This document shows positions 12,542 to 35,266 of a DNA stretch of 64,000 nt, one piece after another (within the stretch, counting starts at the first letter, position 1; the number at the start of each line of letters is the position of its first letter). The notes under the pieces were generated by a model that saw nothing but the letters and a program-made list of their open reading frames with translations, searched no databases and was not told where the DNA came from. A program made the translations under genes and the position numbers. Source of the stretch: Roseomonas sp. Lineage in GTDB: Bacteria > Pseudomonadota > Alphaproteobacteria > Acetobacterales > Acetobacteraceae. The stretch lies in contig JAPSLO010000007.1 of assembly GCA_031180725.1 (NCBI GenBank), positions 248,001 to 312,000 of the forward strand, given 5' to 3'.

Positions 12542-13819
12542 TCATCGCAGCCAGCGGAGCGGCACCGTGACCAGTTCGGGTATCAGCACCAGCAGGGCGA
12601 GCACCAGCAGTTGCGCCACAAGGAACGGCGTAACAGCTCTCGTCACGCGACCGAGATCCACGCGCGCGACTGCGGATGCCACATTCAGCACCGTGCCCAC
12701 CGGCGGTGTCAGCAGACCGATGGCATTGTTCATGATGAACAGCACGCCGAAATAGACCGGGTCGATCCCCGCCTCTCGCACGATTGGCATCAGCACAGGT
12801 GTCAGGATCAGAATGGTCGGGATGAAATCGAGCGCCGTGCCGACCACTACCACCAGCACCATCATCGCCGCCATCAGGAGGACGCGGCTCTCCATGAAAG
12901 GCTCAAGCAATGGACGGATCTGGCCGGGTATGTCGGCGATGGTGATGAGGTAGGCGGTCACCGCCGCCGCTGCGACGAGGAACATCACCGCCGCCGAAGT
13001 GCGCACAGCCGCCACCAGCACGCCCGGCAGCATGGCGGGAGTCAGCTCACGGTAGCCGAACATGCCGACCAGGATTGCATAGACGGCCGCGACCACGCCG
13101 GCCTCGGTCGGCGTGAAGGCGCCGAACTTCAGGCCGAGCACGATGATCACCGGTAGGCCGAGCGCGAGCAGCCCGTCACGCAGCGCCTCACCCGCCTCGG
13201 CCCAGGATCTGCGTGGCAGAGGCTCCACCAATTCGCCGCGGGCTAGCAGCGACCAGGTGAAGGCGAGCGCTGCCGCCATCATCAGCCCAGGCAAGATTCC
13301 CGCAAGGAAAAGGGAGGTGATGGAGATATTGGCCGCGACACCGAAGACGATGAAGCCGATCGAGGGCGGGATGACCGGGGCGATGATGCCACCCGCGGCC
13401 ATCAGCGCCGCTGAACGCCCGAGGTCGTAGCCGGCGCGCCGCATCATTGGCACGAGCACCGCCGCGAGCGCGGCCGTATCCGCCACCGCCGAGCCTGAGA
13501 GCGAGGAGAGCAGCACCGCAGCGATCACCGCGACATAGCCCAGCCCACCACGGCGATGCCCGACCAGCGCGAGGGCGAAGCGAACCAGCCGGCGCGAAAG
13601 ACCGCCCGCCGTCATCGCCTCGCCGGCCAGCAAGAAGAAGGGCACGGCAAGCAGCGCGAAGCTGTCCGCCGCATTCAGCATCTGCAGCGCCATCGACTGC
13701 GTGTCGAATGCCTCCAGATGCCACATCATCGCCAGCGAGGAGACGAGAAGCGCGAACGCGATTGGCATGCCGAGCACCATCGCCCCGAGCAGTGAGCCGG
13801 CGAAGACCAGAAGTGTCAC
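12542..13819 (-). CDS. TRAP transporter large membrane subunit (DctM family), first system
   Basis: This 425-residue, strongly hydrophobic protein has about 12 membrane segments and the DctM/IT-superfamily pattern (MTAGGLSRRLVRFALALVG, GSAVADTAALAAVLVP, the proline-rich APVIPPSIGFIVFG and the C-terminal NNAIGLLTPPVGTVLNVASAVA). It is the ion-coupled permease of a TRAP importer. Its ATG at 13819 overlaps the stop of the small subunit by 4 bases. It is the last gene of a minus-strand group DapA-like enzyme, DctP, cyclase, DctQ, DctM. A short 95-base gap separates it from the convergent TetR gene. Confidence 0.95.
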   Translation of the reverse strand: MTLLVFAGSLLGAMVLGMPIAFALLVSSLAMMWHLEAFDTQSMALQMLNAADSFALLAVPFFLLAGEAMTAGGLSRRLVRFALALVGHRRGGLGYVAVIAAVLLSSLSGSAVADTAALAAVLVPMMRRAGYDLGRSAALMAAGGIIAPVIPPSIGFIVFGVAANISITSLFLAGILPGLMMAAALAFTWSLLARGELVEPLPRRSWAEAGEALRDGLLALGLPVIIVLGLKFGAFTPTEAGVVAAVYAILVGMFGYRELTPAMLPGVLVAAVRTSAAVMFLVAAAAVTAYLITIADIPGQIRPLLEPFMESRVLLMAAMMVLVVVVGTALDFIPTILILTPVLMPIVREAGIDPVYFGVLFIMNNAIGLLTPPVGTVLNVASAVARVDLGRVTRAVTPFLVAQLLVLALLVLIPELVTVPLRWLR

Positions 13820-14328
13820 GCGCCGGGCTCCACTGCCCCGCCATCCTGCCGTGGCCAGGCCGAATCCCGCCCAACCAGCGCCGCCAACAGATCGGTCAGC
13901 ACGATCAACCCCAGGCCAGCGCCCGCAACCACGGCCGCAGCATAGGCCCAGCCCAGGGGAAGGCCCGACACCGGCGCACGGTTGTTGAGATTGATCGCCA
14001 CCTGGGCCCAGGCGCCATGGAGGAAAATGCCGCAGCAGAGCAGCATCAGCAGGTCGGAGAGGATGCGGCAGGCACGCTGCCCGGCCCGCGGCAGCGCACG
14101 CGCGACAAGGTCGAAGCCGAGATGCCCGCCTCGTCCCATGACGATGACGGCGCCGAGAAAGGTCATCCAGACAAAGACGAAGCGAGAGAGCTCCTCGCTC
14201 ACGGTAATACCGGAGTCAAAGGCGTAGCGGAGCACGACGTTGCCGAAGACCATCACCACCATGCCACCGAGTGCGATAGCCAGCAGCGCCTCGGCAAGCG
14301 CCGTCGCATGCGCTGCCAGGCGCGTCAC
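13816..14328 (-). CDS. TRAP transporter small membrane subunit (DctQ family), first system
   Basis: The 170-residue protein has four predicted membrane helices and a family-typical FGNVVLRYAFDSGITVSEELSRF motif, with FVWMTFLGAVIVMGRGGHLGFD following. DctQ forms the membrane complex with DctM. It overlaps the cyclase gene upstream (ATGA at 14325-14328) and the DctM gene downstream (ATGA), so three genes are translationally linked. Confidence 0.92.
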   Translation of the reverse strand: MTRLAAHATALAEALLAIALGGMVVMVFGNVVLRYAFDSGITVSEELSRFVFVWMTFLGAVIVMGRGGHLGFDLVARALPRAGQRACRILSDLLMLLCCGIFLHGAWAQVAINLNNRAPVSGLPLGWAYAAAVVAGAGLGLIVLTDLLAALVGRDSAWPRQDGGAVEPGA

Positions 14329-14996
14329 GCGGCGAACTCCTCGATCGCGAAAATGCGCGCCGGAGCGCCATCCGCGCCCGGCACCTTGAGCGGCGCCGCG
14401 CAGAGGAAGGTACGTGGGCCGGACAAGGCGGCAGTATTGACCAGGTACTCAACCAACGTAATCCCCGCGCGCAGGCAAACATCATGAGTGACGTGCTGCC
14501 CGAAGGGTACCGTCTCGTTGTCGAGCAGGAGCCGGATCGGGTAGTCCTGCGGGAAGTCGAAGGCGAGCGCGCTCGGCCGCTGCGCCTTCAGCCACTCCGC
14601 CGCCTCCCGCGTCAGCCAGGGCGCATCGCGCCAGAATGCTGGCGTGTTCCAGTCCCGCTGCCGGTCCCATGCGGCGGAAACCAGCAGGATCTCGCCCGCC
14701 GGTCCGCCGGGGTCGGCGGCAGCCAGCCGCTCCGGCCCGATTGCCTCATTCGGTCGTGCATCGTGAAGACGCAGGATACGGCAAGGCCCAACAACGCGCT
14801 CTAGCGGTGTGCTTTCGATGGTCGGCGCATCGGCCAGGATATGAGCCTGCGCGTCCACATGGCTGAAGCCGTGGCACGCAGCATCCAGCCGGCTGATACG
14901 GAACTGGTCGCCAGCCTTGACATCGCCCGTCACTGAGACCTGCGTGCGCCAGCGGAAATGGGGCGTGATGGGCATGGAGAGATCGATGATGCGCAT
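14325..14996 (-). CDS. Cyclase-family metal hydrolase (kynurenine formamidase-like, PF04199)
   Basis: This 223-residue protein shows the cyclase-family signature near residues 61-71 (HGFSHVDAQAH), a variant of HxGTHxDxPxH that binds the metal, and starts with the family-typical MRIIDLSMPI. The family hydrolyses N-formyl or lactone-like substrates such as N-formylkynurenine and isatin. The FDFPQDY region replaces the usual substrate segment, so the precise substrate is unknown. It is placed between the TRAP receptor and DctQ and overlaps DctQ by four bases. This coupling suggests it acts on the TRAP cargo. Confidence 0.85.
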   Translation of the reverse strand: MRIIDLSMPITPHFRWRTQVSVTGDVKAGDQFRISRLDAACHGFSHVDAQAHILADAPTIESTPLERVVGPCRILRLHDARPNEAIGPERLAAADPGGPAGEILLVSAAWDRQRDWNTPAFWRDAPWLTREAAEWLKAQRPSALAFDFPQDYPIRLLLDNETVPFGQHVTHDVCLRAGITLVEYLVNTAALSGPRTFLCAAPLKVPGADGAPARIFAIEEFAA

Positions 14997-15014
14997 GGCC
15001 GGACGCGCCTTCCC

Positions 15015-16004
15015 TCAGCTGCCCGCCGCGGCGGCGATTGCCTCGGGCAGATCGGCTCCGAAGCGGCTGGCATAGTCACGTCGGGTTTCTTCCACTACGA
15101 TACGGGCGAAGGCCTCCCGGTCCGGCTCCTCCACGATCTGCATGCCACGGCGGCGCAGCTCGGTGACAGAGCCGCCCTCCGCCTCCTCGTTCATCTGGCG
15201 CTGCTGAGGCGTGACCTCGGCCGCAACCGTCATTACCGAGTCGCGATGGGCAGGCGACAGCGCCTCGAAGCGCTGCCGCGACATCGCCAGGATGCCGGCG
15301 GTGTAGGCGTGGCGTGTCAGGCTCAGGTGGCGCTGGACCTCGTAGAAGCGGGCATTGAGGATCAGCGTGGTGGGGTTCTCCTGCCCGTCCACCGTCCGTG
15401 TCTCGAGCGCGGTGAACAACTCGGTAAAGGGCATCGGCGCCGGGTTGGCGCCCAGCAACTGGAAGGCCTTAATGTGAGCTGGGTTCGGCGTTGTGCGGAT
15501 CTTCAGGCCACGCAGGTCGGTTGGCGTCGCGATCGGGCGGCGCGAGTTGGTGACGTTGCGGAAGCCAATGTCCCAGAAGCCCAGCACCGCCAGGCCCGAG
15601 CTGTCCAGTTCGCCGCGGAGCTGCTGGCCAATGCGCCCGTCCAGCACGGCCGCGACGTGACGCCGGTCGCGGAACTGGAAGGGCAGGTCCAACACATTGA
15701 GCCGCGGCGCCAAGCCGGTGAAGAAGGGATTGCCGGTCAGCGCGATGTCAAGCGTGCCACCGCGTGCCGCGGAGATGATCGTCGGGTCGCTGCCCAGAAC
15801 GCCGTTGGGGAAGACCTGCACCGTCAGCGAGCCTCCGGTGCGCTCGCGCAGCTTCTCGGCAAACATCACGGCGGCCCGGTGCCAGGAATCGGCCTCTGGA
15901 TGCGGATGGGCGAAGCGCAGCCGCACCGCCTGGGCGCGCGCGGCGCCGATGAACGCGGGCGCGGCCAGCAGGCCGAGCATGGCTCGGCGGGTGAGCCTGG
16001 TCAT
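15015..16004 (-). CDS. TRAP transporter periplasmic receptor (DctP family), first system
   Basis: This 329-residue receptor has a twin-arginine-like signal (MTRLTRRAMLGLLAAPAFIG, cleavage near ARAQA) and DctP landmarks: RLRFAHPHPEADSWHRAAVMFA, VQVFPNGVLGSD, the substrate-arginine strand LRGLKIRTTPNPAH, and TVDGQENPTTLI. The ATG at 16004 is preferred because GGAGGAAACAGGA precedes it; an ATG at 16022 would lengthen the tail. TRAP receptors of this type usually bind carboxylates through the conserved arginine. It is 10 bases from an internal hydrolase gene and follows the DapA-like enzyme. Confidence 0.93.
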   Translation of the reverse strand: MTRLTRRAMLGLLAAPAFIGAARAQAVRLRFAHPHPEADSWHRAAVMFAEKLRERTGGSLTVQVFPNGVLGSDPTIISAARGGTLDIALTGNPFFTGLAPRLNVLDLPFQFRDRRHVAAVLDGRIGQQLRGELDSSGLAVLGFWDIGFRNVTNSRRPIATPTDLRGLKIRTTPNPAHIKAFQLLGANPAPMPFTELFTALETRTVDGQENPTTLILNARFYEVQRHLSLTRHAYTAGILAMSRQRFEALSPAHRDSVMTVAAEVTPQQRQMNEEAEGGSVTELRRRGMQIVEEPDREAFARIVVEETRRDYASRFGADLPEAIAAAAGS

Positions 16005-16036
16005 TCCTGTTTCCTCCTCCACCTCTGTCGGGCTCT

Positions 16037-16954
16037 TTACAGTCCCCAGCGTAGCACGAGGGGATCCAGGCGCCGCGCGATCTCAATCAACCCTTTCCGC
16101 GTGGCGGGATGCAACGGTGCGAGCGGCGCGCGCGGGGCGCCGCAACGGATGACGCCGCCCTCCTCCATCAGCGCCTTGGCGGCCAGCAGGCCGCATTGGC
16201 GGTTCTCGTAGTTGATCAGCGGCAGCCAGCGGCAATAGGCGTCCATCGCACCGGCGCGGTCACCCGCGAACCAGGCATCGGTGATCTGGCGGATGCCGTC
16301 CGGGAAGCCGCCGCCGGTCATGGTGCCTGTGGCGCCGGCGTCGAGATCGGCCATCAGCGTGATCGCCTCCTCGCCGTCCCAGGGCCCGGCAACCGCGTCG
16401 CCCCCCAGCTCGATCAGCTCACGCAGCTTGGCGGCGGCCTGCGGCACCTCGATCTTGAAATAGGAGACATTGGCGATCTCGCGCGCCATCCGCGCCAGGA
16501 ACGGTGCCGACAGTGTGGTGCCGCTGACCGGGGCGTCCTGGATCATGATGGGGATAGAGATCGCGTCGGAGACGCGGCGGAAGAACTCATAGATGCCCTT
16601 CTCGCCAATGCGGATGGTTGCGCCGTGGTAGGGCGGCATGACCATCACCATCGCTGCCCCTGCCTCCTGCGCACGGCGGCTGCGTTCGGCGCAGATATGG
16701 GTAGCGAAGTGGGTGGTGGTGACGATCACCGGTACGCGGCCGGCGACGTGCCTCAGCGCGACTTCCATGACCTGCTCGCGGTCCTCGTCCGCCAGGACGA
16801 ACTGCTCGGAGAAGTTCGCCAGGATGCACAGCCCCTCGGAGCCCGCCTCGATCATGAAGTCGATCGCCCGCTTCTGGCCCTCGAGGTCGAGTGCGCCATC
16901 CTCGCGGAAGATGGTGGGGACGACAGGAAAGACCCCGCGATAGACCTGTGGCAT
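16037..16954 (-). CDS. DapA-superfamily aldolase/dehydratase, resembles L-2-keto-3-deoxyarabonate dehydratase
   Basis: The 305-residue TIM-barrel protein has the Schiff-base lysine in NVSYFKIEVPQAAAKLRELI. The DapA catalytic tyrosine region is replaced by IPIMIQDAP, and the pyruvate-binding GTTT-like loop is absent, so it is not lysine-biosynthetic DapA. The run LCILANFSEQFVLAD, the MVMPPYHGATIR segment and GPWDGEEAITLMADLDAG match my memory of L-KDA dehydratases of the Azospirillum type, which turn L-2-keto-3-deoxyarabonate into 2-oxoglutarate semialdehyde. It is first in the minus-strand group with the DctP receptor. I am confident of the family, moderately of the reaction. Confidence 0.75.
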   Translation of the reverse strand: MPQVYRGVFPVVPTIFREDGALDLEGQKRAIDFMIEAGSEGLCILANFSEQFVLADEDREQVMEVALRHVAGRVPVIVTTTHFATHICAERSRRAQEAGAAMVMVMPPYHGATIRIGEKGIYEFFRRVSDAISIPIMIQDAPVSGTTLSAPFLARMAREIANVSYFKIEVPQAAAKLRELIELGGDAVAGPWDGEEAITLMADLDAGATGTMTGGGFPDGIRQITDAWFAGDRAGAMDAYCRWLPLINYENRQCGLLAAKALMEEGGVIRCGAPRAPLAPLHPATRKGLIEIARRLDPLVLRWGL

Positions 16955-17040
16955 CCAGCGTCCTTCCCTCGGCTATTGCAGCGCGGTACGGGCCTGCCGG
17001 GGCCGCCGGTGCTCCCAGCGGCAGCCTCCCAACATGCCAA

Positions 17041-18048
17041 TCAACCCCTTGCGCGGCGTCGCGCGCCCATTGTGCAGGCGAGGTCGAAAGCTGCCTGCAG
17101 CGCGCCGACACGCGCCACGCCCCTACCCTGAATGTCAAAGCCGGTGCCATGTGCGCAGGTTGCGATCGGCACAGGCAGCCCGCCCGCAACCGTGATGCCT
17201 CGCCAGAAGCCCATCAGTTTCATCGCAATCTGGCCCTGATCGTGGTACATCGTGACGATTGCATCCAAGTCGCGCGTGCCATCCGATTTCGGCTGAGCAC
17301 GCAGGAAGATGGTGTCGGCTGGATATGGGCCCTCGCAGGGCAGCCCGCGCCGGCGCGCTTCCTCCAGCGCGGGGCCGATTATCTCGATCTCCTCACGGCC
17401 GAAGGCACCGTTGTCGCCGTTGTGCGGGTTCAGGCCGCAGACCGCGATGCGCGGCTGCTCGATGCCGGCCCCGACCAACGCGTCGCGGATCAGCCCCACG
17501 GCCCCGATCACCCTCTCGGGTGTGATCAGGTCGGCCACCTCGCGCAACGCGACATGGCTCGTCACGCGGCAGGTCCAGAGCCCGTCGAGCACATTGAACT
17601 CGCTGTGCGCGCCCTTGTGGCCCAGCACCTCCGCGAACCAATGCAGCTCGTCCGGGTGGCCCATGTCCGCCATGTGCAACGAGGCCTTATTGAGCGGGGC
17701 AAAGCAGATTCCGTCCACCGCGCCTGCCTGGGCCAGCTCCAGGCATTCGCGAAGCGTTGCAAGCGCATACCGCCCCCCCTCGACACTCGAGCGTCCGCGC
17801 GGAATCGGCGCGTCCCGCCGCACCTCGCGCAGCGCGATACGGCCGGGCGCGAGAGCTGAGACGTCGTTCACGCGCGTGACGGGCAGGTCCACGCCCGCGA
17901 TGCGCATGCCCTCCGCCAGTTCATCCGGGTCCGCGACCAGCAGCAGCGCGGCCTTCTCGCGGTTCGCAGGCTCGGCGAGCAGCTTTGCCATGATCTCGGG
18001 CCCGATGCCGGCAGGATCGCCCAGGACGAGTGCAAGGCGGGGGGTCAT
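17041..18048 (-). CDS. PdxA-family 4-phosphohydroxyacid dehydrogenase (PdxA2-like)
   Basis: This 335-residue enzyme belongs to the PdxA family. It begins RLALVLGDPAGIGPEIMAKL and has the metal-binding VTMYHDQGQIAMKLMGF and NPHNGDNGAFGREE motifs. Biosynthetic PdxA oxidises 4-phosphohydroxy-L-threonine, but paralogues outside vitamin B6 loci act on 4-phospho-D-threonate or erythronate. The location supports the latter, as the ATG at 18048 overlaps the TctA stop by 4 bases (ATGA), tying it to a tricarboxylate-type transporter. No sugar-acid kinase is in the window, so the phosphorylated substrate would have to be made elsewhere. Confidence 0.88.
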   Translation of the reverse strand: MTPRLALVLGDPAGIGPEIMAKLLAEPANREKAALLLVADPDELAEGMRIAGVDLPVTRVNDVSALAPGRIALREVRRDAPIPRGRSSVEGGRYALATLRECLELAQAGAVDGICFAPLNKASLHMADMGHPDELHWFAEVLGHKGAHSEFNVLDGLWTCRVTSHVALREVADLITPERVIGAVGLIRDALVGAGIEQPRIAVCGLNPHNGDNGAFGREEIEIIGPALEEARRRGLPCEGPYPADTIFLRAQPKSDGTRDLDAIVTMYHDQGQIAMKLMGFWRGITVAGGLPVPIATCAHGTGFDIQGRGVARVGALQAAFDLACTMGARRRARG

Positions 18049-19556
18049 TGGGCCGTTCTCCGGACTGCAGGTGCGCCGCCGCGCAGCATGCGGCTCAGCG
18101 GCGGCCAGGCGAGCAGCAGAAGCGCGACGGTTGTGATGGTGCCGACCAACGGGTTCGACCAGAAGACCAAAAGATCGCCCTGGCTCATCAGCATGGACTG
18201 GCGGAAGGCATCCTCGGCTTTGTCGCCGAGCACCATCGCCAGCACGAGCGGCGCGATCGGGTAGTCAAGCTTCTTCATGAGATAGCCGAGCACGCCGAAG
18301 CCGATCGCGAGCAGTACGTCGAAGCCGTTGTTCGAAACCATCCAGGCCCCGGTCAGGCAAATCGTCATGATCAGCGGCGCGAGCAGCCCGAAGGGCACGC
18401 GCATGACGGAGGCGAAAATGGGCACGGTGGACAGCACCAGCACTACCGCGACGAGGTTCGCGACATACATGCTGGCAATCAGCCCCCAGACGAAGTCCGG
18501 CCGGTCCTGGAACAGCGTCGGGCCGGGCTGCAGGCCCCAGATCATCAGCCCGCCCAGCATCACGGCCGCCGTGGCTGAGCCAGGCACGCCGAGGGCGAGC
18601 ATCGGCAGCAGCGCGGAAACTCCGGCGGCGTGGTCCGAGGTCTCCGGGCTCACCACGCCCTCGGGCTCGCCCCGGCCGAAATTGCCGGCATTGCGGGAGA
18701 AGCGGCGCGCCACGCCATAGGACATGAAGGACGCGGCAGTTGGCCCGCCCGGCGTCAGCCCCATCCAGATGCCGATCGCGGCGCTCCGCACCAGCGCGAC
18801 CGTGTAGCGTGGCATCTGTGCCAGCGTCGCCAGCACTGCAGCGAGCCGCACGCGGGCGGTGATGCCCTCAACTTTCTCGGTCTCGTCGGCCGTGGCCAGA
18901 AGCTCCCCGATGCCGAACAGGCCGATCACCGCGACGAGGAAGGAGATGCCGCGCACCAGCTCGTCCTGCCCGAAGGTCAGCCGCATTTCGCCCGAGACGG
19001 TGTCCATGCCGATGGTCGCCAGCGACAGGCCGATCAGCAGAGAGACTGCCGTCTTCAGCGCGTCCGTTCCGCCCATGCCGATGAAGGCGCAGAAGGCCAG
19101 CAGGTAGACAGCGAAATACTCGGCCGGGCTGAAGCGCAGCGCGAAGGTGGCGATGTCATCCGCCACCATGGTGATGGTCACCACGCCCACCAAGGCGCCA
19201 AAGCCTGACGACAGGAAGGCTAGAGACAATGCCTCGGCCGCCCGACCCTGTCTGGCCATCGGGTGCCCGTCGAAGGTCGTCGCGACGGAGGAGGGCTCGC
19301 CAGGGATGTTGAACAGGATCGAGGTCGTGGATCCGCCGAGCAGCGCGCCCCAGTACATGGAACTCAGCAGGATAATGGCGCTGACCGGCGGCATGAAGAA
19401 GGTCAGCGGCATCAGCAGCGCGACCCCGTTGGGCGCGCCCAGCCCAGGCAGCACGCCGACCAGGATGCCGATCAGCACCCCGACGACCATGAGCCCGACG
19501 TGGTATGCGGTCAGTGCCACCTCAAAGCCATGTAGCAGCGCGGGCAGGCCTTCCAT
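18045..19556 (-). CDS. Tripartite tricarboxylate transporter large permease (TctA), first system
   Basis: This 503-residue, roughly 12-helix protein has the TctA hallmarks: GVLPGLGAPNGVALLMPLTF, GSTTSILFNIPGEPSSVATTFDGHPMA, GLTPGGPTAASFMSYG and LPMLALGVPGSATAAVMLGGL. I start at ATG 19556, as its A is shared with the TctB stop (TGATG). A longer frame to 19613 would overlap TctB needlessly. TctA is the main permease; it depends on the Bug/TctC receptor two genes upstream. The stop overlaps the PdxA-like gene, so transport and catabolism are translationally linked. Confidence 0.95.
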   Translation of the reverse strand: MEGLPALLHGFEVALTAYHVGLMVVGVLIGILVGVLPGLGAPNGVALLMPLTFFMPPVSAIILLSSMYWGALLGGSTTSILFNIPGEPSSVATTFDGHPMARQGRAAEALSLAFLSSGFGALVGVVTITMVADDIATFALRFSPAEYFAVYLLAFCAFIGMGGTDALKTAVSLLIGLSLATIGMDTVSGEMRLTFGQDELVRGISFLVAVIGLFGIGELLATADETEKVEGITARVRLAAVLATLAQMPRYTVALVRSAAIGIWMGLTPGGPTAASFMSYGVARRFSRNAGNFGRGEPEGVVSPETSDHAAGVSALLPMLALGVPGSATAAVMLGGLMIWGLQPGPTLFQDRPDFVWGLIASMYVANLVAVVLVLSTVPIFASVMRVPFGLLAPLIMTICLTGAWMVSNNGFDVLLAIGFGVLGYLMKKLDYPIAPLVLAMVLGDKAEDAFRQSMLMSQGDLLVFWSNPLVGTITTVALLLLAWPPLSRMLRGGAPAVRRTAQ

Positions 19557-20029
19557 CAGTAGATTCCAAGCGCCTCTTCGAGCGGACCCTTGGCCAGCGG
19601 CACTGTCAACCATGCCTCAAATAGCAGGAAGAAGGCCGCCGGCGTGCCGAACGCCATGAGGAGCGCCACTGGCCAAGAGGCTCGCGCCTGACCGCGCGCC
19701 ATCCACAGCAGGTAAATAACCATCGGCACATAGGCGCCGAGTGGCGCGATGGCCGCCCCGAACAGGGCAGTCGGCAGCAGCATCGAGCCGACGCGGTACA
19801 GCACCCCAGGTTCCGCGAAGCGTCCCGCCGCTCCGGCCGAAAGCTGGCGCAGCGCCAGAAGCAGCGCGACAGCGACAAGCAGCATCCCGATGCGGAGCGG
19901 GAAGTAGCCCGCGCCCGGCCCGGTCGTGCCCCAGCCGACGTCGTGCCGCAGCGCGCCCGCCGCCACGAGCCCACCGAAGCCCGCGGCGGCCAGCGCCATG
20001 CCCAGCTCGGCGCCCCGCCGGGAAGCCAC
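19556..20029 (-). CDS. Tripartite tricarboxylate transporter small permease (TctB), first system
   Basis: A small membrane protein of about 157 residues with the TctB pattern: about four helices, the first after SRRGAELGMALAAAG, and a glycine-proline-rich motif TTGPGAGYFPLRIGMLL. The start is uncertain: GTG at 20029 lies four bases after the TctC stop and is my choice, whereas ATG at 20059 would overlap TctC by 26 bases. It shares a base with TctA (TGATG). Confidence 0.88.
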   Translation of the reverse strand: MASRRGAELGMALAAAGFGGLVAAGALRHDVGWGTTGPGAGYFPLRIGMLLVAVALLLALRQLSAGAAGRFAEPGVLYRVGSMLLPTALFGAAIAPLGAYVPMVIYLLWMARGQARASWPVALLMAFGTPAAFFLLFEAWLTVPLAKGPLEEALGIY

Positions 20030-27968: not shown

Positions 27969-29243
27969 TTGGGCATCGCGGTCATCCTCGCCTTCGCGGT
28001 CCTCTTCACTTGGGGCGTACCGGTCGTCTACGCGGTGCTCATCCCGAGCATCGCCTACGTGCTGCTAGAGGATCTTCCGGTCACGCTGCTGGCCAGCCGT
28101 GTCGTCTATGCGCTGGACAGCTTCCCGCTGGTCGCCGTGCCGCTCTTCATCTTCGTCGGCCACCTGATGAACCTGGCCGGCATCACGGACCGCATCTTCC
28201 ACTTCGCCAGCGTGATCGCCAGCCGCCTGCATGGCGGCCTCGCTCAGGTGAACATCGTGGCCAGCCTGATCTTCTCCGGCATCTCGGGCGCCGCACTGGC
28301 GGATGTGGCCGGGCTCGGCCGGGTCGAAATCAAGGCGATGCGCGAAAGGGGGTTCGATGTGCCCTTCTCGGCTGCGGTCACCGCCTCATCCTCCCTGGTC
28401 GGGCCAATCTTTCCGCCCTCCATCCCGCTGATCGTCTACGGCTCCGTCACCTCCGTCTCGATCATTCAGCTCCTGCTCGCGGGCATCCTGCCGGGCATCC
28501 TATGCACCGTGGCCCTGATGATCGCCGCCGCCATCGTGGCCTGGCAGCGGCGCTACCCCCGGGCGGATCGCTGGCCGACGCTGCGCGAGGTGAACGGCGC
28601 GCTCTGGCCCGCCATGCCCGCGCTGATCGCGCCCGTCCTGCTGGTCGCGGGCATGCTGGTCGGCATCTTCACGCCGACCGAGGCTGCCGCCATCGCGGCC
28701 ATCTATGTTCTGTTCATCGGCTTCTTCGTCTATCGTGAGATGACGGTCGCCCATGTTCTGGAATCGGCGCTGCTGACGGCGCGCAACACCTCTTCCATTC
28801 TGGTCATCGTCGCGGCGGCGGCAATGTTCGGCTGGATTCTGGCGATCGAGGAGATCCCTCAGGCCTTCGGCGCGGCGATCGCCGGCCTGTCGGACGACAG
28901 GCTTGTACTGCTGCTGCTGGTGAACGTGATCTTCTTCATCGCCGGCATGTTCCTGGACAGTACCACGGCGACCCTGCTGGTCGTGCCGATCATCGCCCCA
29001 CCGGTGGTCGCGGCCGGGGTGGACCCGGTGCATCTGGGCCTGATTGTCGTGTTCAACCTAATGATCGGGCTGCTCACGCCGCCCATGGGGCTGGCGCTTT
29101 TTCTGATCTGCGACATCGCGCAGATCAGCATGCGCGAGCTGCTGCGCGCGCTGATTCCCTTCTACTTCCCACTGATTTCCACGCTGGCCATCATAACCTT
29201 CTGGGAATGGTTCGTGCTGGCGATTCCGAACCTGATCCGGTGA
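27969..29243 (+). CDS. TRAP transporter large membrane subunit (DctM family), second system
   Basis: This 424-residue permease has the DctM signatures GGLAQVNIVASLIFSGISGA, SSLVGPIFPPSIPLIVYGSV and LMIGLLTPPMGLALFLICDI. The start is TTG at 27969 with TAAGGAC upstream, an uncommon start codon that may lower translation. The RpiB gene follows after 17 bases, so a DctPQM-RpiB-dehydrogenase-amidohydrolase operon is likely. Confidence 0.93.
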   Translation: MGIAVILAFAVLFTWGVPVVYAVLIPSIAYVLLEDLPVTLLASRVVYALDSFPLVAVPLFIFVGHLMNLAGITDRIFHFASVIASRLHGGLAQVNIVASLIFSGISGAALADVAGLGRVEIKAMRERGFDVPFSAAVTASSSLVGPIFPPSIPLIVYGSVTSVSIIQLLLAGILPGILCTVALMIAAAIVAWQRRYPRADRWPTLREVNGALWPAMPALIAPVLLVAGMLVGIFTPTEAAAIAAIYVLFIGFFVYREMTVAHVLESALLTARNTSSILVIVAAAAMFGWILAIEEIPQAFGAAIAGLSDDRLVLLLLVNVIFFIAGMFLDSTTATLLVVPIIAPPVVAAGVDPVHLGLIVVFNLMIGLLTPPMGLALFLICDIAQISMRELLRALIPFYFPLISTLAIITFWEWFVLAIPNLIR

Positions 29244-29260
29244 AGCAAGGATACCGCCCG

Positions 29261-29710
29261 ATGCGCATTGCCCTTGGCTGCGACCACGCAGGATTCCCGA
29301 TGAAGGCCCAGGTGCTGGAGGTAATCCGCAGCCTCGGCCACGAGGTGGAGGATCTCGGCACCCACTCGCCGGATCCCGTGGACTTCCCCGACATCGCCCG
29401 CGCAGTCTGCGACCGTGTTGCGGCAGGCAAGGCGGAGCGAGGCATGCTCGTCTGCGGCACGGGTGTCGGCGCCTCCATCGCCGCCAACAAGCGGCGTGGC
29501 ATTCGCGCCGCGGTCTGCCACGACGTGCATTCGGCACACCAGTCGGTCGAGCATGATGACGTTAACGTGATGTGCATCGGCGCGCAGATCGTCGGCCCGT
29601 GGCTCGCGCGAGACCTGGTGAAAGCCTTCATCGAGGCGCGCTTCGACGCGACCGAGGACCATCGCCGCCGTGTCGCCAAGCTCGCCGAGTTCGAGCGCGA
29701 AGCGTCGTGA
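29261..29710 (+). CDS. RpiB/LacAB-family sugar-phosphate isomerase
   Basis: This 149-residue enzyme has the RpiB motifs MRIALGCDHAGFPMK at the N-terminus and GMLVCGTGVGASIAANK with the catalytic cysteine; a phosphate-binding helix precedes ARDLVKAFIEARF. RpiB interconverts ribose-5-phosphate and ribulose-5-phosphate; relatives isomerise allose-6-, galactose-6- or erythrose-4-phosphate. In a sugar-acid cluster it may serve an isomerisation step rather than the pentose pathway. The ATG at 29261 follows DctM by 17 bases. Confidence 0.88.
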   Translation: MRIALGCDHAGFPMKAQVLEVIRSLGHEVEDLGTHSPDPVDFPDIARAVCDRVAAGKAERGMLVCGTGVGASIAANKRRGIRAAVCHDVHSAHQSVEHDDVNVMCIGAQIVGPWLARDLVKAFIEARFDATEDHRRRVAKLAEFEREAS

Positions 29711-29729
29711 CACGCGGGGCCGGAACGCC

Positions 29730-30611
29730 ATGACACGGGTTGGCTTCATCGGCATCGGCATCATGGGCGAGGCGATGGTCCGTCGCCTGCTCGAACGCGG
29801 GCGCGGGCCGGTCACCGTGTGGAACCTGGAGCCGGAGCGGCTGGACACCGTGGTGCCGTTCGGTGCCGTCGCCGCGCCGAGCCCCGCCGCTGTCGCCGCG
29901 GCAAGCGATGTCGTCATGCTCTGCGTCCTCCACACCGAGGCGGTGCGAAGCGTCGTCTTTGCCGCCGATGGCGTGGCCTCCGCGCCAGGGCTCGCCGGGC
30001 GTCTGCTCATCGACCTTTCCACCGCCGATCCCGCCGCGACGCGTGAAATGGCCGCACAGCTGCGGCGAGAGGCGGGCATGGGCTGGGTGGATGCGCCCTG
30101 CTCGGGCGGTCCGCACGCCGCGCGCGCTGGCACGCTTACCGTCATGGCCGGCGGCGAGGAAGCCGAGGTGGCGCGCGCGGGCGAGGTGCTGCGCGACCTC
30201 GCCGTCAACATCACCCGCATGGGGCCGGTGGGCGCCGGCCAGACGACCAAGATCATTAACCAGGCGATCGTCGGCACGGGCTTCGTGCTAATGGCAGAGG
30301 CGCTCGCGCTGGCTGAGACGGCGGGAATTGACGCCGCTGCCTTGCCAGCATGCCTGAAGGGTGGCTTCGCCGACAGCGAGTTGCTGCGCCGTATCTACAC
30401 CCAGATGCTGCAGCGCCATTTCGACCCACCGGCGAGCTATGCGCGCCAGCTGTTGAAGGACATGAAGGCCGTGAAGGCCTTTGCACATGAGTTCGGCGCC
30501 GATCTCCCGCTGGTGGAGACGGCCGCCCGGCGCTTCGCCGAGTTCGTCGCCCAGGGGAACGAGATGGCCGACAGCGCGGCCATCCTGCGCCTCTACCGCC
30601 CCGACCCGTGA
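29730..30611 (+). CDS. NAD(P)-dependent 3-hydroxyisobutyrate dehydrogenase-family oxidoreductase (GarR/LtnD/MmsB type)
   Basis: This 293-residue protein has the Rossmann GFIGIGIMGEAM, the substrate motif DAPCSGGPHAARAGTLTVM, and catalytic lysine in GQTTKIINQAI. The family covers 3-hydroxyisobutyrate, tartronate semialdehyde, and L-threonate dehydrogenases; context with TRAP genes and RpiB suits a small hydroxy-acid such as L-threonate. It sits 19 bases downstream of the RpiB gene and its stop overlaps the next start (GTGA). Confidence 0.9.
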   Translation: MTRVGFIGIGIMGEAMVRRLLERGRGPVTVWNLEPERLDTVVPFGAVAAPSPAAVAAASDVVMLCVLHTEAVRSVVFAADGVASAPGLAGRLLIDLSTADPAATREMAAQLRREAGMGWVDAPCSGGPHAARAGTLTVMAGGEEAEVARAGEVLRDLAVNITRMGPVGAGQTTKIINQAIVGTGFVLMAEALALAETAGIDAAALPACLKGGFADSELLRRIYTQMLQRHFDPPASYARQLLKDMKAVKAFAHEFGADLPLVETAARRFAEFVAQGNEMADSAAILRLYRPDP

Positions 30612-31591
30612 GCCCGGCCATGCCTCCTTCGCGCGCAGGTTACCTCGCCAGTGGGCAGGATGCCGATCTGCCGGTGGTAGACGCGCACCACCACATCTGG
30701 GATCTCCGGGCCAACCATCATCCCTGGCTCGCGGAGGAGCCGCCGCCGCCCTTTCGCTACGGCGACAGTCGACCGCTCCGGCGCAACTACTTGCCGGCCG
30801 ACTACCGGCGCGATGCGGCCGGCCAGAACATCGTCGCGACGGTCTACATGGAGGCCGAGCACGACCCCGCCGACCCGCTGCGCGAGACGCGCTGGGTGCA
30901 TGACGTGGCGGCCCGGGAAGGGCTGCCCCAGGCCATGGCCGGCGCGGCCTTCCTCGACCGCGAGGATGCCGCGGAGATCATCCGGGCACAGGCCGCCTTC
31001 CCGCTGGTGCGGAGCTTGCGCCACAAGCCCCGCGGCGTCACAAGCGCAGAGGCGTACGAGCCCGACCACCGCATGCCGGGTTCGATGCGCTGCCTGCGCT
31101 GGCGTGCCGGCTACCGGCACCTCGCTGACAGTGAGCTCTTCTTTGAGTTGCAGACGCCCTGGTGGCATCTGGGCGACGCGCTGGAACTGGCGCGGGACTT
31201 CCCGGGCACACTCATCGTGCTGAACCATCTCGGCCTGCCCGCGGACCGCAGCGCGGCGGGGCTCGCCGCCTGGCGGGAAGCCATGGCGCGCCTTGCCGAG
31301 GCGCCGAACGTCCTCGTGAAGCTCTCGGGCATCTGCGTGCCCGGCCAGCGCTGGACGCCGGAGCTGAACGGCTGGGTCGTGCTGGAGGCGGTGCGGCTGT
31401 TCGGCGCGTCGCGCTGCATGTGGGCCAGCAACTACCCGGTTGACGGGCTCGTGGCCGGCTTCGCCGAGATCCTGTCGGGAATGCGCGCCATCACAGCCGG
31501 GCTGCCGCGCACGGACCGCCTGGCACTGTTCCACGACACGGCAGCGCGGACCTATCGCATTCCGGCAGCCGAGGCCGTCCCCGTGGGTTGA
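30608..31591 (+). CDS. Amidohydrolase-superfamily TIM-barrel hydrolase/lactonase (amidohydrolase 2)
   Basis: This 327-residue protein has the metal-binding DAHHHIWDL near the N-terminus, SLRHKPRGVTS and WASNYPVDGLV near the C-terminus, as in the amidohydrolase 2 subgroup that includes L-rhamnono- and L-fucono-lactonases and 2-pyrone-4,6-dicarboxylate lactonase. The GTG start at 30608 overlaps the dehydrogenase stop by 4 bases, which ties it to the hydroxy-acid pathway. Lactone opening of a sugar acid is the best inference. Convergent with the SDR gene, 10 bases away. Confidence 0.85.
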   Translation: MSPAMPPSRAGYLASGQDADLPVVDAHHHIWDLRANHHPWLAEEPPPPFRYGDSRPLRRNYLPADYRRDAAGQNIVATVYMEAEHDPADPLRETRWVHDVAAREGLPQAMAGAAFLDREDAAEIIRAQAAFPLVRSLRHKPRGVTSAEAYEPDHRMPGSMRCLRWRAGYRHLADSELFFELQTPWWHLGDALELARDFPGTLIVLNHLGLPADRSAAGLAAWREAMARLAEAPNVLVKLSGICVPGQRWTPELNGWVVLEAVRLFGASRCMWASNYPVDGLVAGFAEILSGMRAITAGLPRTDRLALFHDTAARTYRIPAAEAVPVG

Positions 31592-31601
31592 TCATCCGAC
31601 A

Positions 31602-32369
31602 TCAGAGCACTTTCTGCCCGCCATCCACCATGAAGGTCGCCCCGGTCACATAGGATGCCTCGTCCGAGGCGAGCCAGAGGATCGGGAAGGCAATCTCCCG
31701 CGGGTCCGCCCAGCGCTGCAGGAGGCAATTGTCCACGCGCTCGGCCGCGAGATCCTCGCGCCCGCGGCCAAGCCGGCGGACGTGGAAAGGGGTGAGAGTC
31801 AGGCCCGGGCAGACGGCGTTCACCCGGATGCCATGAGCGGCCTCCTCAAAGGCGAGCGTACGGGTCAGCGACAGGATCGCGGCCTTCGTCGCGTCGTACT
31901 GTCCCAGGCCGGGGCGCGGGTTCACCGCGTGGGTCGAAGCAATGTTGACAATGCTGCCGCGGCCCGAGGCACGAAGGTCCGGCAGCGCGGCGCGCGTTAA
32001 CTGGGCGTGGCTCAGGAGGTTAACCGCGAGGATCTCGTGCCAGGTCTCCGTTTTGGCCTCGGCCAGCGGCTCATAGGCGCGGATGCCGGCATTGTTCACA
32101 AGGACTTCGACTGGCCCGAAGACACGGCGGGTCTCCGCGATGATCCGCGCCGCAGCGTCTTCCCCAGCGGTGTCCAGGACGAGATCCAACAAGGCTGCGC
32201 CCGGCACGGTCGCGCGGATCTCCGCGGCGACTGCCTGCATCGCCGCAGCATCGCGGTCCGCCAGGACGACGCGAGCCCCCTCCTCGCAGAAAAGCCGTCC
32301 GGTGGCCGCACCTATCCCGCCGGCCCCGCCGGTTATGACCGCAACCCTGCCATCCAGCCGCTTGCCCAT
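31602..32369 (-). CDS. Short-chain dehydrogenase/reductase (SDR)
   Basis: This 255-residue classical SDR has the cofactor motif TGGAGGIGAATG, NNAG, the active serine in IVNIAST and the Tyr-Lys pair in YDATKAAILSL. The presence of Asp after strand two (VVLADRD) suggests NAD rather than NADP. The ATG at 32369 is the last in a TRAP operon: DctP, DctM, DctQ, SDR, in the minus direction with 44 bases separating DctQ and SDR. It probably oxidises an alcohol group of the TRAP cargo. Confidence 0.9.
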   Translation of the reverse strand: MGKRLDGRVAVITGGAGGIGAATGRLFCEEGARVVLADRDAAAMQAVAAEIRATVPGAALLDLVLDTAGEDAAARIIAETRRVFGPVEVLVNNAGIRAYEPLAEAKTETWHEILAVNLLSHAQLTRAALPDLRASGRGSIVNIASTHAVNPRPGLGQYDATKAAILSLTRTLAFEEAAHGIRVNAVCPGLTLTPFHVRRLGRGREDLAAERVDNCLLQRWADPREIAFPILWLASDEASYVTGATFMVDGGQKVL

Positions 32370-32413: not shown

Positions 32414-32923
32414 TCAGGCAAGCAGCGAGTCGCCCGCCCCCAGCGCCTGGCGCTCGCCGCGCAGCACGCGCCAGATCCCTGCGATGCTGTAGAGGGTCAT
32501 CGGTACGCCCGCGACCGGCAGCGCCGCATACCACCAGGCCCGGTCCACTCCGAGGAACGGTGCCGTCTCGGCTGAATCGACCAGGAAGACCGTGCCCCAC
32601 CATACGAGGATCAGAGCGACGGCCAGCATGATGACCTGCTGAGCGAGGCCGAGAAGGCGCCGCGCCGTGGCCGGCAGGGCGGCTTCCAGGGAGGCGACGC
32701 GGTAGAGTGCGCCCTCTCGCCACAGCGCGACCGCACCGAGCATCGTCAGCCAGACCACCAGCAGTTCCACGATCTCGTCATAGCCCGAGACGGCTACGGC
32801 CGGCACGCTGCGCCCGACAACGCCGAGCAGGAGCAGGAAAAAGAGCCCGAGCATGGCAGCGATCACGCCGAAGCGGCAGACGAGCGCTACCGCGCGGTCG
32901 GGGATGTGCAGCAGCGCCCTCAT
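32414..32923 (-). CDS. TRAP transporter small membrane subunit (DctQ family), third system
   Basis: This 169-residue protein has four helices and the DctQ motif VSGYDEIVELLVVWLTMLGA. The ATG at 32923 overlaps the DctM stop (ATGA). The order here is DctP, DctM, DctQ rather than the P-Q-M of the other two systems, so this TRAP set has a distinct history. Confidence 0.88.
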   Translation of the reverse strand: MRALLHIPDRAVALVCRFGVIAAMLGLFFLLLLGVVGRSVPAVAVSGYDEIVELLVVWLTMLGAVALWREGALYRVASLEAALPATARRLLGLAQQVIMLAVALILVWWGTVFLVDSAETAPFLGVDRAWWYAALPVAGVPMTLYSIAGIWRVLRGERQALGAGDSLLA

Positions 32924-34218
32924 CGCACCAGCCCGAAGCCAAGGCTGTGCGGTAGCCAGAGCGAGACCGCCGGTACATAGGTGACCACCATCAGCACGCC
33001 GGCCAGTGCCAGGACATAGGGCCACATCTCGGCCACGATCTCGCCGATCGGCACCTTCCCTACCTCGGAGACGACATAGAGGCACATGCCGACGGGGGGT
33101 GTGACCAGGCCGATCATGATGTTCAGCACGATCACGACGCCGAAATGCACGGGGTCCACCCCGATCTGGGTCATGATCGGCAGCAGCACCGGGAAGGCGA
33201 TAATCAGGATTGCGATGCCCTCGATGAACATGCCGAGCACGAGCAGGACAATGTTCACGATCAGCAAGATAACCCATGGCTCGCTCGACAGGCCGAACAG
33301 CGTGGCGATCACCGCGTTCGGGATCTCCTGCTGGATAAGCACCCAGCCAAACGGCGCTGCGGCGGCAATGATGAACATGACCTGCGCAGTCTGGCGGCCT
33401 GATTGCCACAGGATCTCGGGCAGCTCCGCCATGCGAAGCTCGCCGTAGAGGAAGCGGCCGAGCAGGAAGGCATAGCCCGCCGCGACCACGGCAGCCTCGG
33501 TCGGCGTGACAATCCCGCCGAAGATGCCGCCCAACACCAAGGGCGGCATGGCCAGCGCAGGCAATGCGGCGCGCAGGATGCGCCAGGATTCCGGCAGGGG
33601 CGGCCTCGCCTCGGCCACCGGCAGGTTCCGCCGGCGTGCCACGACCGCGATGATCGCCATGAGCGCGAGCCCCATCAGAACGCCCGGCACCAAGCCGGCA
33701 AGGAAGAGCGCGCCGACGGAGACATTCGCGAGGCTGCCGTAGATGACGAAGGGAATGGAAGGCGGGATGATCGGCCCGATGGTGGAGGACACGGCCGTGA
33801 TCGTCGCCGCGAAGCGCGCGCTGTAGCCGGCCTTTGTCATGGCGCGAATTTCGACGACGCCAAGGCCCGCCGCATCCGCGACGGCTGAGCCCGACATGCC
33901 GGCGAAGAGCATGGATGCCAGCACATTCACATGGCCCAGCCCGCCCCGGATCCGTCCCACCATGAGATGCGCGACAGCGAAGATCCGCTCCGTCATGCCG
34001 CCGGTGTTCATCAAGTTTCCGGCGAGTATGAAGAAGGGCACGGCGAGCAGCGGGAAGGAAGTTGTCGCCGCGTACATACGCTGGATGAGGATCACCAGCA
34101 GATCCGGGCCCGTGGTGATCCACATCAGCCCCGCCGCCACGGCGCCAAGCACCACGGCGATGGGAACGCCGTACAGGATCAGCCCACAGACGGCAAGGAG
34201 CACGCCGCCGATCAGCAC
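32920..34218 (-). CDS. TRAP transporter large membrane subunit (DctM family), third system
   Basis: This 432-residue permease shows GGLGHVNVLASMLFAGMSGSAV, SSTIGPIIPPSIPFVIYGSL, and NIMIGLVTPPVGMCLYVVSEV. Start ATG at 34218, 34 bases after the receptor stop. It forms a translationally coupled pair with the DctQ gene. Confidence 0.94.
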   Translation of the reverse strand: MLIGGVLLAVCGLILYGVPIAVVLGAVAAGLMWITTGPDLLVILIQRMYAATTSFPLLAVPFFILAGNLMNTGGMTERIFAVAHLMVGRIRGGLGHVNVLASMLFAGMSGSAVADAAGLGVVEIRAMTKAGYSARFAATITAVSSTIGPIIPPSIPFVIYGSLANVSVGALFLAGLVPGVLMGLALMAIIAVVARRRNLPVAEARPPLPESWRILRAALPALAMPPLVLGGIFGGIVTPTEAAVVAAGYAFLLGRFLYGELRMAELPEILWQSGRQTAQVMFIIAAAAPFGWVLIQQEIPNAVIATLFGLSSEPWVILLIVNIVLLVLGMFIEGIAILIIAFPVLLPIMTQIGVDPVHFGVVIVLNIMIGLVTPPVGMCLYVVSEVGKVPIGEIVAEMWPYVLALAGVLMVVTYVPAVSLWLPHSLGFGLVR

Positions 34219-34252
34219 GAAGCTACCCCCTGGCGTGCCTGCGGCCGGCCGC

Positions 34253-35266
34253 TCACGCCGGGCGACGGGCGGCGTTCACCAGTCCTTCCCAACTGCTCCA
34301 CACCTGCTCGCCCAGTGCGCGCCGCAGTTGATCGTACGCGGGGCCCATGCGCTCGCGGAAGGGGCCGACCTCGGGTCGCGTCACCTGCACCCCGGCGCGC
34401 TGCATCTGGGCGATGTAATCTTCCTCCTGCGTGCGCACCGCCGTACGCGCCGCTGCGCCCGCGCGCGCCGCTTCCTCCGTCACAACCGCCTGCTGGTCAG
34501 CATTCATGCGTCCCCAGGCCCGCGGGTTCGCGAGAAGCACAATCGGCGCATAGATGTGCCGCGTCAGGGCGAGGTGACTCTGAACCTCGAAGAACTTGGC
34601 AGCGAAGACCGTGGCAACTGGGTTGTCCTGGCCATCCACGGTGCGGTTCGACAGCGCCAGGTAGACCTCCTGGAAGGCAATGGTCTGAATGCTCGCGCCC
34701 AGTGCCTCGAAGGCGGCACGGATCGCAAGCTCGGGCGGCACGCGCACGCGCAGGCCTTGGATGTCGGCCGGCGTGTTCACCGGCCGGCGGCTGTTGGTGA
34801 AGGCGCGGAAGCCCCATTCGAAATTGGCGATCCACTGGAAGCCTGACGAGCGGAACTGCTGCGCGAGCCAGTCGCGCGCCGTGCTGTCCAATGTGCGATG
34901 CGCATGCTCCCAGTTGTCGAACTGGTAGGGGATGTTGATCACGCCGATGGTGCGCGAGATCGGCTCGAGATTGGCGGGGTTGGCGAGGATCAGGTCGATC
35001 GCGCCAAGCCGGGTCTGCTGCGCCGTCTCGACCGGGGAGCCCAGGGCGTTATTGGGGAAGATGCGGATGCGCACCTCACCGCGCGTCCGCTCCTCGATGC
35101 GCCGCGCCATGCCCTCGGCCTCGAGGTGGACGGGATGGGTCACATCGGCCGGGTGAGTGAGGCGATACTCCACGGCCGCACCGGCGCTGCGCACCATCCC
35201 GACCAGGGGCAAAGAGGCGCTCGCCAGGACCAGGGACCGCCGAGACCACCGGATGTGCGTTGTCAT
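34253..35266 (-). CDS. TRAP transporter periplasmic receptor (DctP family), third system
   Basis: This 337-residue receptor has a twin-arginine-like signal (RWSRRSLVLASASLPLVG) and DctP landmarks: YRLTHPADVTHPVHLEAEGM, IRIFPNNALGSPVETAQQ, ADIQGLRVRVPPELA and RTVDGQDNPVATVF. The ATG at 35266 is chosen because the signal peptide begins there; the frame runs on to 35380 without coding character. It is the first gene of the minus-strand TRAP-SDR operon, next to the gene-poor scar. Confidence 0.92.
   Translation of the reverse strand: MTTHIRWSRRSLVLASASLPLVGMVRSAGAAVEYRLTHPADVTHPVHLEAEGMARRIEERTRGEVRIRIFPNNALGSPVETAQQTRLGAIDLILANPANLEPISRTIGVINIPYQFDNWEHAHRTLDSTARDWLAQQFRSSGFQWIANFEWGFRAFTNSRRPVNTPADIQGLRVRVPPELAIRAAFEALGASIQTIAFQEVYLALSNRTVDGQDNPVATVFAAKFFEVQSHLALTRHIYAPIVLLANPRAWGRMNADQQAVVTEEAARAGAAARTAVRTQEEDYIAQMQRAGVQVTRPEVGPFRERMGPAYDQLRRALGEQVWSSWEGLVNAARRPA

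Follow-up and report, generated by a model that had tools for sequence, protein, structure and literature searches.

We analysed a window of 64,000 nucleotides from Roseomonas sp. (contig JAPSLO010000007.1, positions 248,001 to 312,000; host genome of 5.69 Mb in 36 contigs), in which genes for carboxylate transport and sugar-acid metabolism form an island at 12542-35266 (coordinates are positions of the whole window). Our preferred reading, held tentatively and with somewhat less than even confidence, is that the island brings together, as a hybrid, modules that act on C4-C6 sugar acids in non-phosphorylated form, with substrates that we infer: a branch for acids derived from ascorbate, and a threonate branch served by a DXR-II-like oxidoreductase (DLO). 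The prediction for DLO is the testable novelty. The initial annotation had proposed a possible undescribed catabolic pathway; a hybrid of known-type modules, arranged around a member of an uncharacterised DLO clade, is more likely than a single new pathway.

The DLO gene (21942-23345, plus strand) encodes a protein with Pfam DRL_cat, NAD_binding_3 and SAF domains, a combination that we take to be COG4091. The protein has the overall DXR-II fold and differs from DXR-II at two of the three readable diagnostic residues (Gly121 is Ala115 and Arg320 is Asn343), while DXR-II Thr229 falls just outside the alignment, with Asp243 in DLO by extrapolation. As reported in PMC3847144, Gly121 and Arg320 are conserved in DXR-II and not in the DLO1 and DLO2 families, and complementation of DXR was not achieved with any of the four DLO1/DLO2 proteins tested. 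The DLO clade was recovered in the tree at 100/99. A role as DXR-II, making 2-C-methyl-D-erythritol 4-phosphate for isoprenoids outside catabolism, is therefore extremely unlikely in spite of the shared fold, and we rejected it on the residues and on the catabolic gene context of the clade. The open-licence literature yielded nothing on DLO function beyond PMC3847144. Plasmid DLOs, where annotated, mostly carry the name of the flagellar biosynthesis protein FlgA, of homoserine dehydrogenase or of an SAF domain-containing protein, and the first two of these names are misleading. The host genome encodes two more DXR-II-like paralogues outside the DLO clade (loci L042 and L043, at G000:C1:106065 and C6:357542).

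Gene context was assessed by comparing 46 DLO-clade loci (50 examined, with three duplicates dropped and two contigs of one strain merged) with 25 control loci, counting neighbours of at least 40% identity within 8 kb. With loci that are not independent, controls from one family and clade loci that are not, several loci truncated where their contigs end, and clade loci the source of part of the reference proteins, P values can serve as rough guidance only. PdxA was found near 22 DLO loci, TctA near 21, TctC near 25, GntR near 27, OtnK near 10, OtnC near 9, the cyclase near 8 and KDA (L-2-keto-3-deoxyarabonate) dehydratase near 4, each near none of the controls, and DctM near 9 DLO and 4 control loci. 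PdxA or OtnK plus OtnC occurred in 30 of the 46.

OtnK and OtnC occurred together in nine DLO loci, eight of them without PdxA near (Rhodobacterales L048, L054, L055 and L062; Comamonadaceae L052 and L059; family f201 L039 and L041). In L052 and L059 the pair runs divergently from DLO, and in the others it shares the DLO strand. In L048 and L053, which were the two loci scanned, its kinase and decarboxylase score above the equivalog cut-offs of NCBIfam. Both types of neighbourhood are combined in Paracoccus L053, with isomerase, kinase, PdxA, TctCBA, DLO, OtnK and OtnC. Neither LtnD nor OtnI was detected at E 1e-4 in the 19-25 kb of any of the nine loci. Known tetronate routes, as described in PMC12540250, start with LtnD and run in four steps with OtnI or in a three-step bypass with F_bP_aldolase-type OtnC. 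OtnK and OtnC beside DLO, with no LtnD or OtnI, suggest that DLO may make 3-oxo-tetronate directly, and in those gene groups it would likely be the enzyme that does so. The host genome also carries OtnK and OtnC above cut-off on contig C3, with no LtnD or OtnI beside them; neither gene lies in the island. Near DLOs of another type, of the same family as the window, in four of the 25 controls (L045, L071, L075 and L081) we observed an LtnD-like gene (50-53% identity), and this second type may also serve sugar acids.

Aligned to 2HI1, 6E85 and 1PS7, the PdxA-family oxidoreductase/decarboxylase of the island (17041-18048, minus strand; PF04166, E 4.8e-82) keeps the histidines in TSH, NPH and YHDQ, which we take to be the PdxA metal ligands, and shows DELH instead of GHTE and GITV..IATCAHGT instead of GVNIT..RTSxDHGT (motifs as in 2HI1 and 6E85). 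Several of the changed GHTE and N..RTSxDHGT positions presumably bind substrate in E. coli PdxA. The protein scores 198.5 bits against the NCBIfam model for D-threonate 4-phosphate dehydrogenase, which has a cut-off of 583. We therefore rejected the PdxA2-like identity (4-phospho-D-threonate 3-dehydrogenase) first given to this gene, since the encoded protein has lost the GHTE and RTSxDHGT motifs retained in PdxA2 and falls short of the model cut-off. The DE motif of the island protein is present in 25 of 27 PdxAs in one alignment and in 31 of 33 in a larger one, these 31 having been chosen as DLO neighbours or near matches of the island PdxA; the two PdxAs that lack it are the other PdxAs of the host genome, one of which adjoins a DUF1537 gene. 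To judge from these residues, the island PdxA and its DE-motif kin probably act on unphosphorylated acids. Because residues kept by phosphate-using PdxA and PdxA2 are lost, the absence of a DUF1537 kinase from the island is unsurprising. That absence, like that of an IlvD-type dehydratase, had been pointed out in the initial annotation; both hold locally, but a DUF1537 kinase and a class II aldolase occur with DLO relatives and an IlvD-type gene lies inside the sister locus L004.

In a tree of 33 PdxA sequences, some with long branches that were flagged, the island PdxA groups (100/98) with those of Cupriavidus L090, Caballeronia L087 and Agrobacterium L049, apart from the PdxAs of most other DLO loci. 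This placement bears on an alternative in which a free C5 aldonate would undergo oxidative decarboxylation by PdxA, giving erythrulose. A kinase of the DhaK type, a TIM-barrel epimerase and an isomerase of the RpiB type would then lead from erythrulose to erythrose 4-phosphate, and DLO would interconvert epimers or oxidise a second acid. In favour of this alternative, Paracoccus L053 and L056, Rhizobium L063 and Sinorhizobium meliloti L093 have a sugar-phosphate isomerase/epimerase and a gene of the dihydroxyacetone kinase family close to PdxA-TctCBA; it also draws on the RpiB-type sugar-phosphate isomerase of the island (29261-29710, plus strand; PF02502, above the NCBIfam rpiB cut-off). This is one of two copies in the genome, the second being on contig C8, and reaches 107.8 bits against the D-erythrulose-4-phosphate isomerase model, below the cut-off of 240. 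However, the PdxAs of the L053, L056, L063 and L093 type belong to another subclade, no DhaK-type kinase or TIM-barrel epimerase is found in the island, and RpiB occurs in only one of the 46 DLO loci, the island itself. We consider this alternative unlikely. The S. meliloti locus, on pSymB, is a GntR-PdxA-TctCBA-isomerase-dihydroxyacetone kinase group; DLO is not found within the 17 kb examined there, and the group is a candidate for a separate pathway in an organism used in the laboratory.

The DHDPS-family gene next to PdxA (16037-16954, minus strand) matches the solved KDA dehydratases PDB 7C0C/3FKK with 464 bits, the next match being 92 bits. On these scores the gene, annotated at the outset as KDA-dehydratase-like, encodes KDA dehydratase; it is single in the genome, where the next protein shows 33% identity. 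A true KDA dehydratase could also point to a plain Weimberg-type pathway for an L-pentonate (L-arabinonate, L-xylonate or L-lyxonate), in which PdxA and DLO would form side branches. In agreement with this possibility, the sister locus L004 holds an IlvD-type dehydratase between KDA dehydratase and PdxA, 78% identical to the L060 protein, which is L-arabinonate-dehydratase-like and of the IlvD type. No IlvD-type dehydratase lies between these genes in the island, no close dehydratase was found in the host genome, and PdxA and the amidohydrolase would be left unused, so that this pathway appears quite unlikely.

The preferred reading, with its ascorbate branch, draws on the clusters that hold relatives of the two enzymes. 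Cupriavidus L090 carries KDA dehydratase (78% to that of the island), PdxA (60%) and TctC, with an adjoining L-rhamnonate-dehydratase-type gene that is 69% identical to that of Variovorax L088; the latter locus has TctC, PdxA, the L-rhamnonate-dehydratase-type gene, cytochrome b561 and a gene of the DHDPS family. In Caballeronia L107 an L-rhamnonate-dehydratase-type gene accompanies PdxA and an adjacent amidohydrolase (53% to that of the island), and in Ruegeria L089 a PdxA lies with an L-rhamnonate-dehydratase-type gene and a DHDPS relative (55%). Agrobacterium L049 departs from this pattern, its PdxA lying with LtnD, OtnK, OtnI and OtnC. Stack and colleagues (2020) reportedly described the catabolism of L-ascorbate via 2-carboxy-L-lyxonolactone and 2-carboxy-L-lyxonate. 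The closest relatives that we found of the island PdxA and the island KDA dehydratase, Roseomonadaceae aside, belong to clusters that look like this pathway. The work by Stack is cited in PMC10444878, for an ascorbate degradation pathway that requires a COG4948 enzyme, and in PMC11066805, for growth on ascorbate. Ascorbate products named in PMC11066805 and PMC6225978 are 2-carboxy-L-pentonate, its lactones, L-lyxonate, L-xylonate and L-threonate.

Under the preferred reading, the Amidohydro_2 sugar-lactonase-like hydrolase (30608-31591, plus strand; PF04909, E 4.7e-33), whose best NCBIfam match is L-fucono-1,5-lactonase at 74.9 bits, below the cut-off of 400, would open 2-carboxy-L-pentonolactone, and TctCBA1 or TctCBA2 would import the resulting dicarboxylic acid. 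PdxA would decarboxylate this acid to L-pentonate, a dehydratase encoded outside the island would convert L-pentonate to L-KDA, and KDA dehydratase would yield alpha-ketoglutarate semialdehyde. In the second branch, TRAP1 would import a C4 aldonate such as L-threonate, and the cyclase-family hydrolase encoded within the TRAP1 genes (14325-14996, minus strand; PF04199, E 4.9e-19), which we infer to be a lactone or ester hydrolase, would open its lactone. DLO would then oxidise the aldonate directly to 3-oxo-tetronate and so take over what LtnD and OtnI do together; OtnK and OtnC, encoded outside the island in this genome, would lead on to dihydroxyacetone phosphate. The genes for TRAP2, RpiB, HIBADH and the amidohydrolase would make up a further acid module, with SDR-TRAP3 separate. 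One source of acids would fit both the lactonase, PdxA and KDA dehydratase and the TRAP1-cyclase-DLO group; as 2-carboxy-L-pentonates and L-threonate both arise when plant ascorbate breaks down, this would explain one shared regulator, and the island possibly serves such products.

Several observations weigh against this scheme. Sixteen of the 46 DLO loci have neither PdxA nor OtnK plus OtnC within 8 kb (two of them, L009 and L038, have a TRAP system with cyclase); these 16 include four Hyphomicrobiaceae-type DLOs inside the subclade of the island, for which no catabolic neighbours were seen. The amidohydrolase and HIBADH are weakly linked to DLO, occurring near it in 6 of 46 loci against none of 25 controls (the amidohydrolase of the island lies just past 8 kb) and in 4 of 46 against 4 of 25, respectively; at a laxer 35% identity, six of the 25 controls gain TctC and one an OtnC-like gene. 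The island PdxA is only 49-60% identical to the relatives that define the clusters. No aldonate dehydratase or alpha-ketoglutarate-semialdehyde dehydrogenase lies in the island, and a search of the genome for aldonate dehydratases gave best matches of 49% (IlvD type, against L060) and 35% (L-rhamnonate-dehydratase type). HIBADH, RpiB and SDR have no step in the scheme. Finally, the genome encodes a canonical LtnD above cut-off on contig C35 and an OtnI-like gene (48%) on C2, so that DLO need not be the only route and OtnK and OtnC on C3 are support rather than proof. The idea that a genome without LtnD would back the role of DLO failed with that LtnD. The Hyphomicrobiaceae-type DLOs (L006, L010, L014 and L015) are 56-63% identical to the island DLO, and in L006, L010 and L014 a similar gene, CinA/MoaB-like by eye only, lies near.

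A search of genome contigs found 17 DLO loci, of which those nearest to the island belong to Falsiroseomonas and Roseomonas; three near relatives (MO-31, L004 and L005) were compared with it over the stretches examined. In Roseomonas sp. MO-31, on two contigs, 15 core proteins are kept in order with 70-93% identity (DctMQ-cyclase-DctP-KDA dehydratase-PdxA-TctABC-GntR-DLO-TctCBA-HIBADH-amidohydrolase), implying that the gene set is more than chance; TRAP2 and RpiB are not present there between TctA2 and HIBADH. L004 keeps KDA dehydratase, PdxA, TctABC1, GntR, DLO, TctCBA2, HIBADH and the amidohydrolase, with TRAP1 and TRAP2 missing from its stretch; in the 21 kb of L005, nothing but the part from KDA dehydratase to DLO is kept. 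Relatives of TRAP2 adjoin DLO in L035 (DctM2 62%, DctP2 56%), and judged by these TRAP2 is not foreign to the DLO system. The GntR of the island lineage is 27-28% identical to those of the four other DLO loci that aligned, while TctA1 is 64-70% identical in ten more distant DLO loci (34% in L054). Because PdxA and GntR differ from those of other DLO lineages while TctA1 is kept, we read the island as a hybrid, a DLO-TctCBA core into which another PdxA, regulator and KDA dehydratase were inserted.

The same comparisons bear on a further alternative, in which independent pathways are clustered without joint function and each TRAP or Tct module has its own enzymes for unrelated acids. TRAP1-cyclase occurs with DLO and no PdxA in L009, PdxA-TctCBA-amidohydrolase without DLO in L106, RpiB with a TRAP (not TRAP2) and the amidohydrolase with HIBADH in Roseinatronobacter L105, and TRAP3 relatives in another cluster (L108), all as this alternative would have it. 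It is opposed by the order kept from DctMQ to the amidohydrolase in MO-31 and by the divergence of both gene runs from one short gap, and we regard it as rather unlikely.

Gene families were assigned by Pfam scans, and some proteins were also scored against NCBIfam models with cut-offs. The scans confirmed two TctCBA systems, three TRAP systems and all the enzymes initially listed, with open reading frames, and gene spacing divides them into three units: two divergent runs around the GntR gene, and an SDR-TRAP3 operon. The minus-strand run of nine genes, TctC1 to DctM1 (21071-12542), comprises, besides the genes given above, TctC1 (receptor, 20034-21071; PF03401, E 3.1e-17), TctB1 (start uncertain, 19606-20029; PF07331, E 5.3e-12), TctA1 (18045-19613; PF01970, E 1.4e-142) and the TRAP1 receptor DctP1 (15015-16004; PF03480, E 1.1e-86), small permease DctQ1 (13816-14328; PF04290, E 5e-30) and large permease DctM1 (12542-13819; PF06808, E 2e-116; 92% in MO-31). 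The TRAP-cyclase unit recurs near DLO in L009, L012, L013, L018, L038, L048 and L062.

The plus-strand run of 11 genes, divergent from the former, extends from the GntR/FCD regulator (21217-21930; PF00392, PF07729) to the amidohydrolase (21217-31591). It includes the receptor TctC2 (23403-24380; PF03401, E 4.8e-29), TctB2 (start uncertain, 24301-24825; PF07331, E 5.4e-11), TctA2 (24838-26325; PF01970, E 1.5e-119), the TRAP2 receptor DctP2 (26465-27472; PF03480, E 2.7e-59), DctQ2 (27474-27950; PF04290, E 5.2e-20), DctM2 (27969-29243; PF06808, E 1.4e-109) and a HIBADH-family beta-hydroxyacid dehydrogenase (29730-30611; PF03446, PF14833) that is under cut-off for all 10 NCBIfam models matched. 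A gap of 139 bases 5' of DctP2 could hold a further promoter.

The SDR-TRAP3 operon (35266-31602, minus strand) converges on the run that ends with the amidohydrolase. It encodes the receptor DctP3 (34253-35266; PF03480, E 1.5e-75), with a Shine-Dalgarno-like motif at its start at 35266, DctM3 (32920-34218; PF06808, E 3.2e-121) and DctQ3 (32414-32920; PF04290, E 8.2e-21), both with uncertain starts, and the SDR dehydrogenase (31602-32369; PF13561). The operon was not found in the stretches examined of MO-31, L004 and L005, and the best plasmid relative of DctP3 sits in a different gene cluster, L108; contrary to the first listing of SDR and TRAP3 as island members, they are probably not part of the core. 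Two genomes of one genus, represented by L033 and L034, have an SDR gene next to DLO, with surroundings that otherwise differ.

The 145-base gap between TctC1 and GntR (21072-21216) is likely the shared control region of the divergent runs, an arrangement that fits the suggestion, made from the outset, of several small modules sharing a regulator. It holds ACCAGTRGACC, which also occurs at that place in L004, L005 and L018. A longer 13-mer of this motif gave 25 matches in the window at up to three mismatches against 30.3 expected, and with no enrichment elsewhere GntR control of TRAP3 is not supported. Scans of 12300-31700 gave no promoter-like sites (1.1 expected) and nine terminator-like sites (6.7 expected, standard deviation 3.2), and no RNA regulator reached the gathering threshold in 11000-37000. 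The G+C content of the island resembles that of its flanks, and the sole tRNA of the window, at 37591, lies outside it and not at its ends, so that nothing seen marks a mobile island; we rejected a genomic island acquired by horizontal transfer on these grounds, integrases not having been searched for. On one flank (7341-12446) lie genes for an RND efflux permease and an adaptor of the HlyD type, and a TetR gene divergent from them. Past the other end, a decayed TctC-type receptor remnant (36024-36503, plus strand; 24% over 160 residues, E 7.7e-9) is spanned by no single listed open frame.

If the preferred reading is true, it points to a way in which bacteria associated with plants may feed on what is left when vitamin C breaks down, and many genes named PdxA may act on unphosphorylated acids. 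The known threonate route would be shortened by one enzyme, and a DXR-II-like clade that several records call homoserine dehydrogenase or FlgA would gain its first function. The long-described L-threonate 3-dehydrogenase activity (EC 1.1.1.129), which is not known to have a gene assigned, may find one in DLO. A remark on L-threonate 3-dehydrogenase in PMC10476524, made while discussing blood metabolomics, was left aside. More speculatively, and improbably in our estimate, the DLO clade would consist of carboxylate-substrate oxidoisomerases, catalysing an NAD-dependent, DXR-like 1,2-shift on an oxidised branched C4 acid, for instance 2-(hydroxymethyl)glycerate, to give 3-oxo-tetronate for OtnK and OtnC, with analogous branched pentonate chemistry leading to PdxA. 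Such a reaction would explain a DXR-II relative in place of an LtnD relative and give branched acids an entry into C4 metabolism.

No described cluster with the whole gene set was found in the open-licence literature, in line with the initial annotation, in which no known C4/C5 sugar-acid pathway matched the combination fully; the amidohydrolase, PdxA and KDA dehydratase match in part the ascorbate pathway attributed to Stack and colleagues. With the DXR-II, DLO1 and DLO2 families (Carretero-Paulet, 2013; PMC3847144) the island DLO is homologous and shares fold and SAF domain, and it differs in the changed DXR-II residues and in forming its own clade with catabolic neighbours. The LtnD-OtnI-OtnK-OtnC pathway for L-threonate and D-erythronate, as given in PMC12540250, has its OtnK and OtnC beside DLO relatives and, in the host genome, outside the island; the loci of these relatives differ in having no LtnD or OtnI, both of which DLO may replace, and the island has no kinase. 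The DtnK-PdxA2 pathway for D-threonate has a PdxA superfamily member in common with the island, where the PdxA2 substrate motif is lost and no DUF1537 kinase is encoded. The KDA dehydratase of PDB 7C0C/3FKK is the same enzyme as here, while the L-arabinose dehydrogenase, lactonase and arabinonate dehydratase of its L-arabinose pathway were not found in the island. The L-ascorbate pathway of Stack and colleagues reportedly uses a lactonase of the amidohydrolase family, a decarboxylase of the PdxA family that acts on an unphosphorylated acid, and KDA dehydratase. Members of these families are present in the island, and those for PdxA and KDA dehydratase group with proteins of the look-alike clusters. 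No ascorbate-oxidising front end or rearrangement enzyme was recognised among the genes of the island, L-lyxonate dehydratase and semialdehyde dehydrogenase are absent from it, and two TctCBA systems, three TRAP systems and DLO are additions to that pathway.

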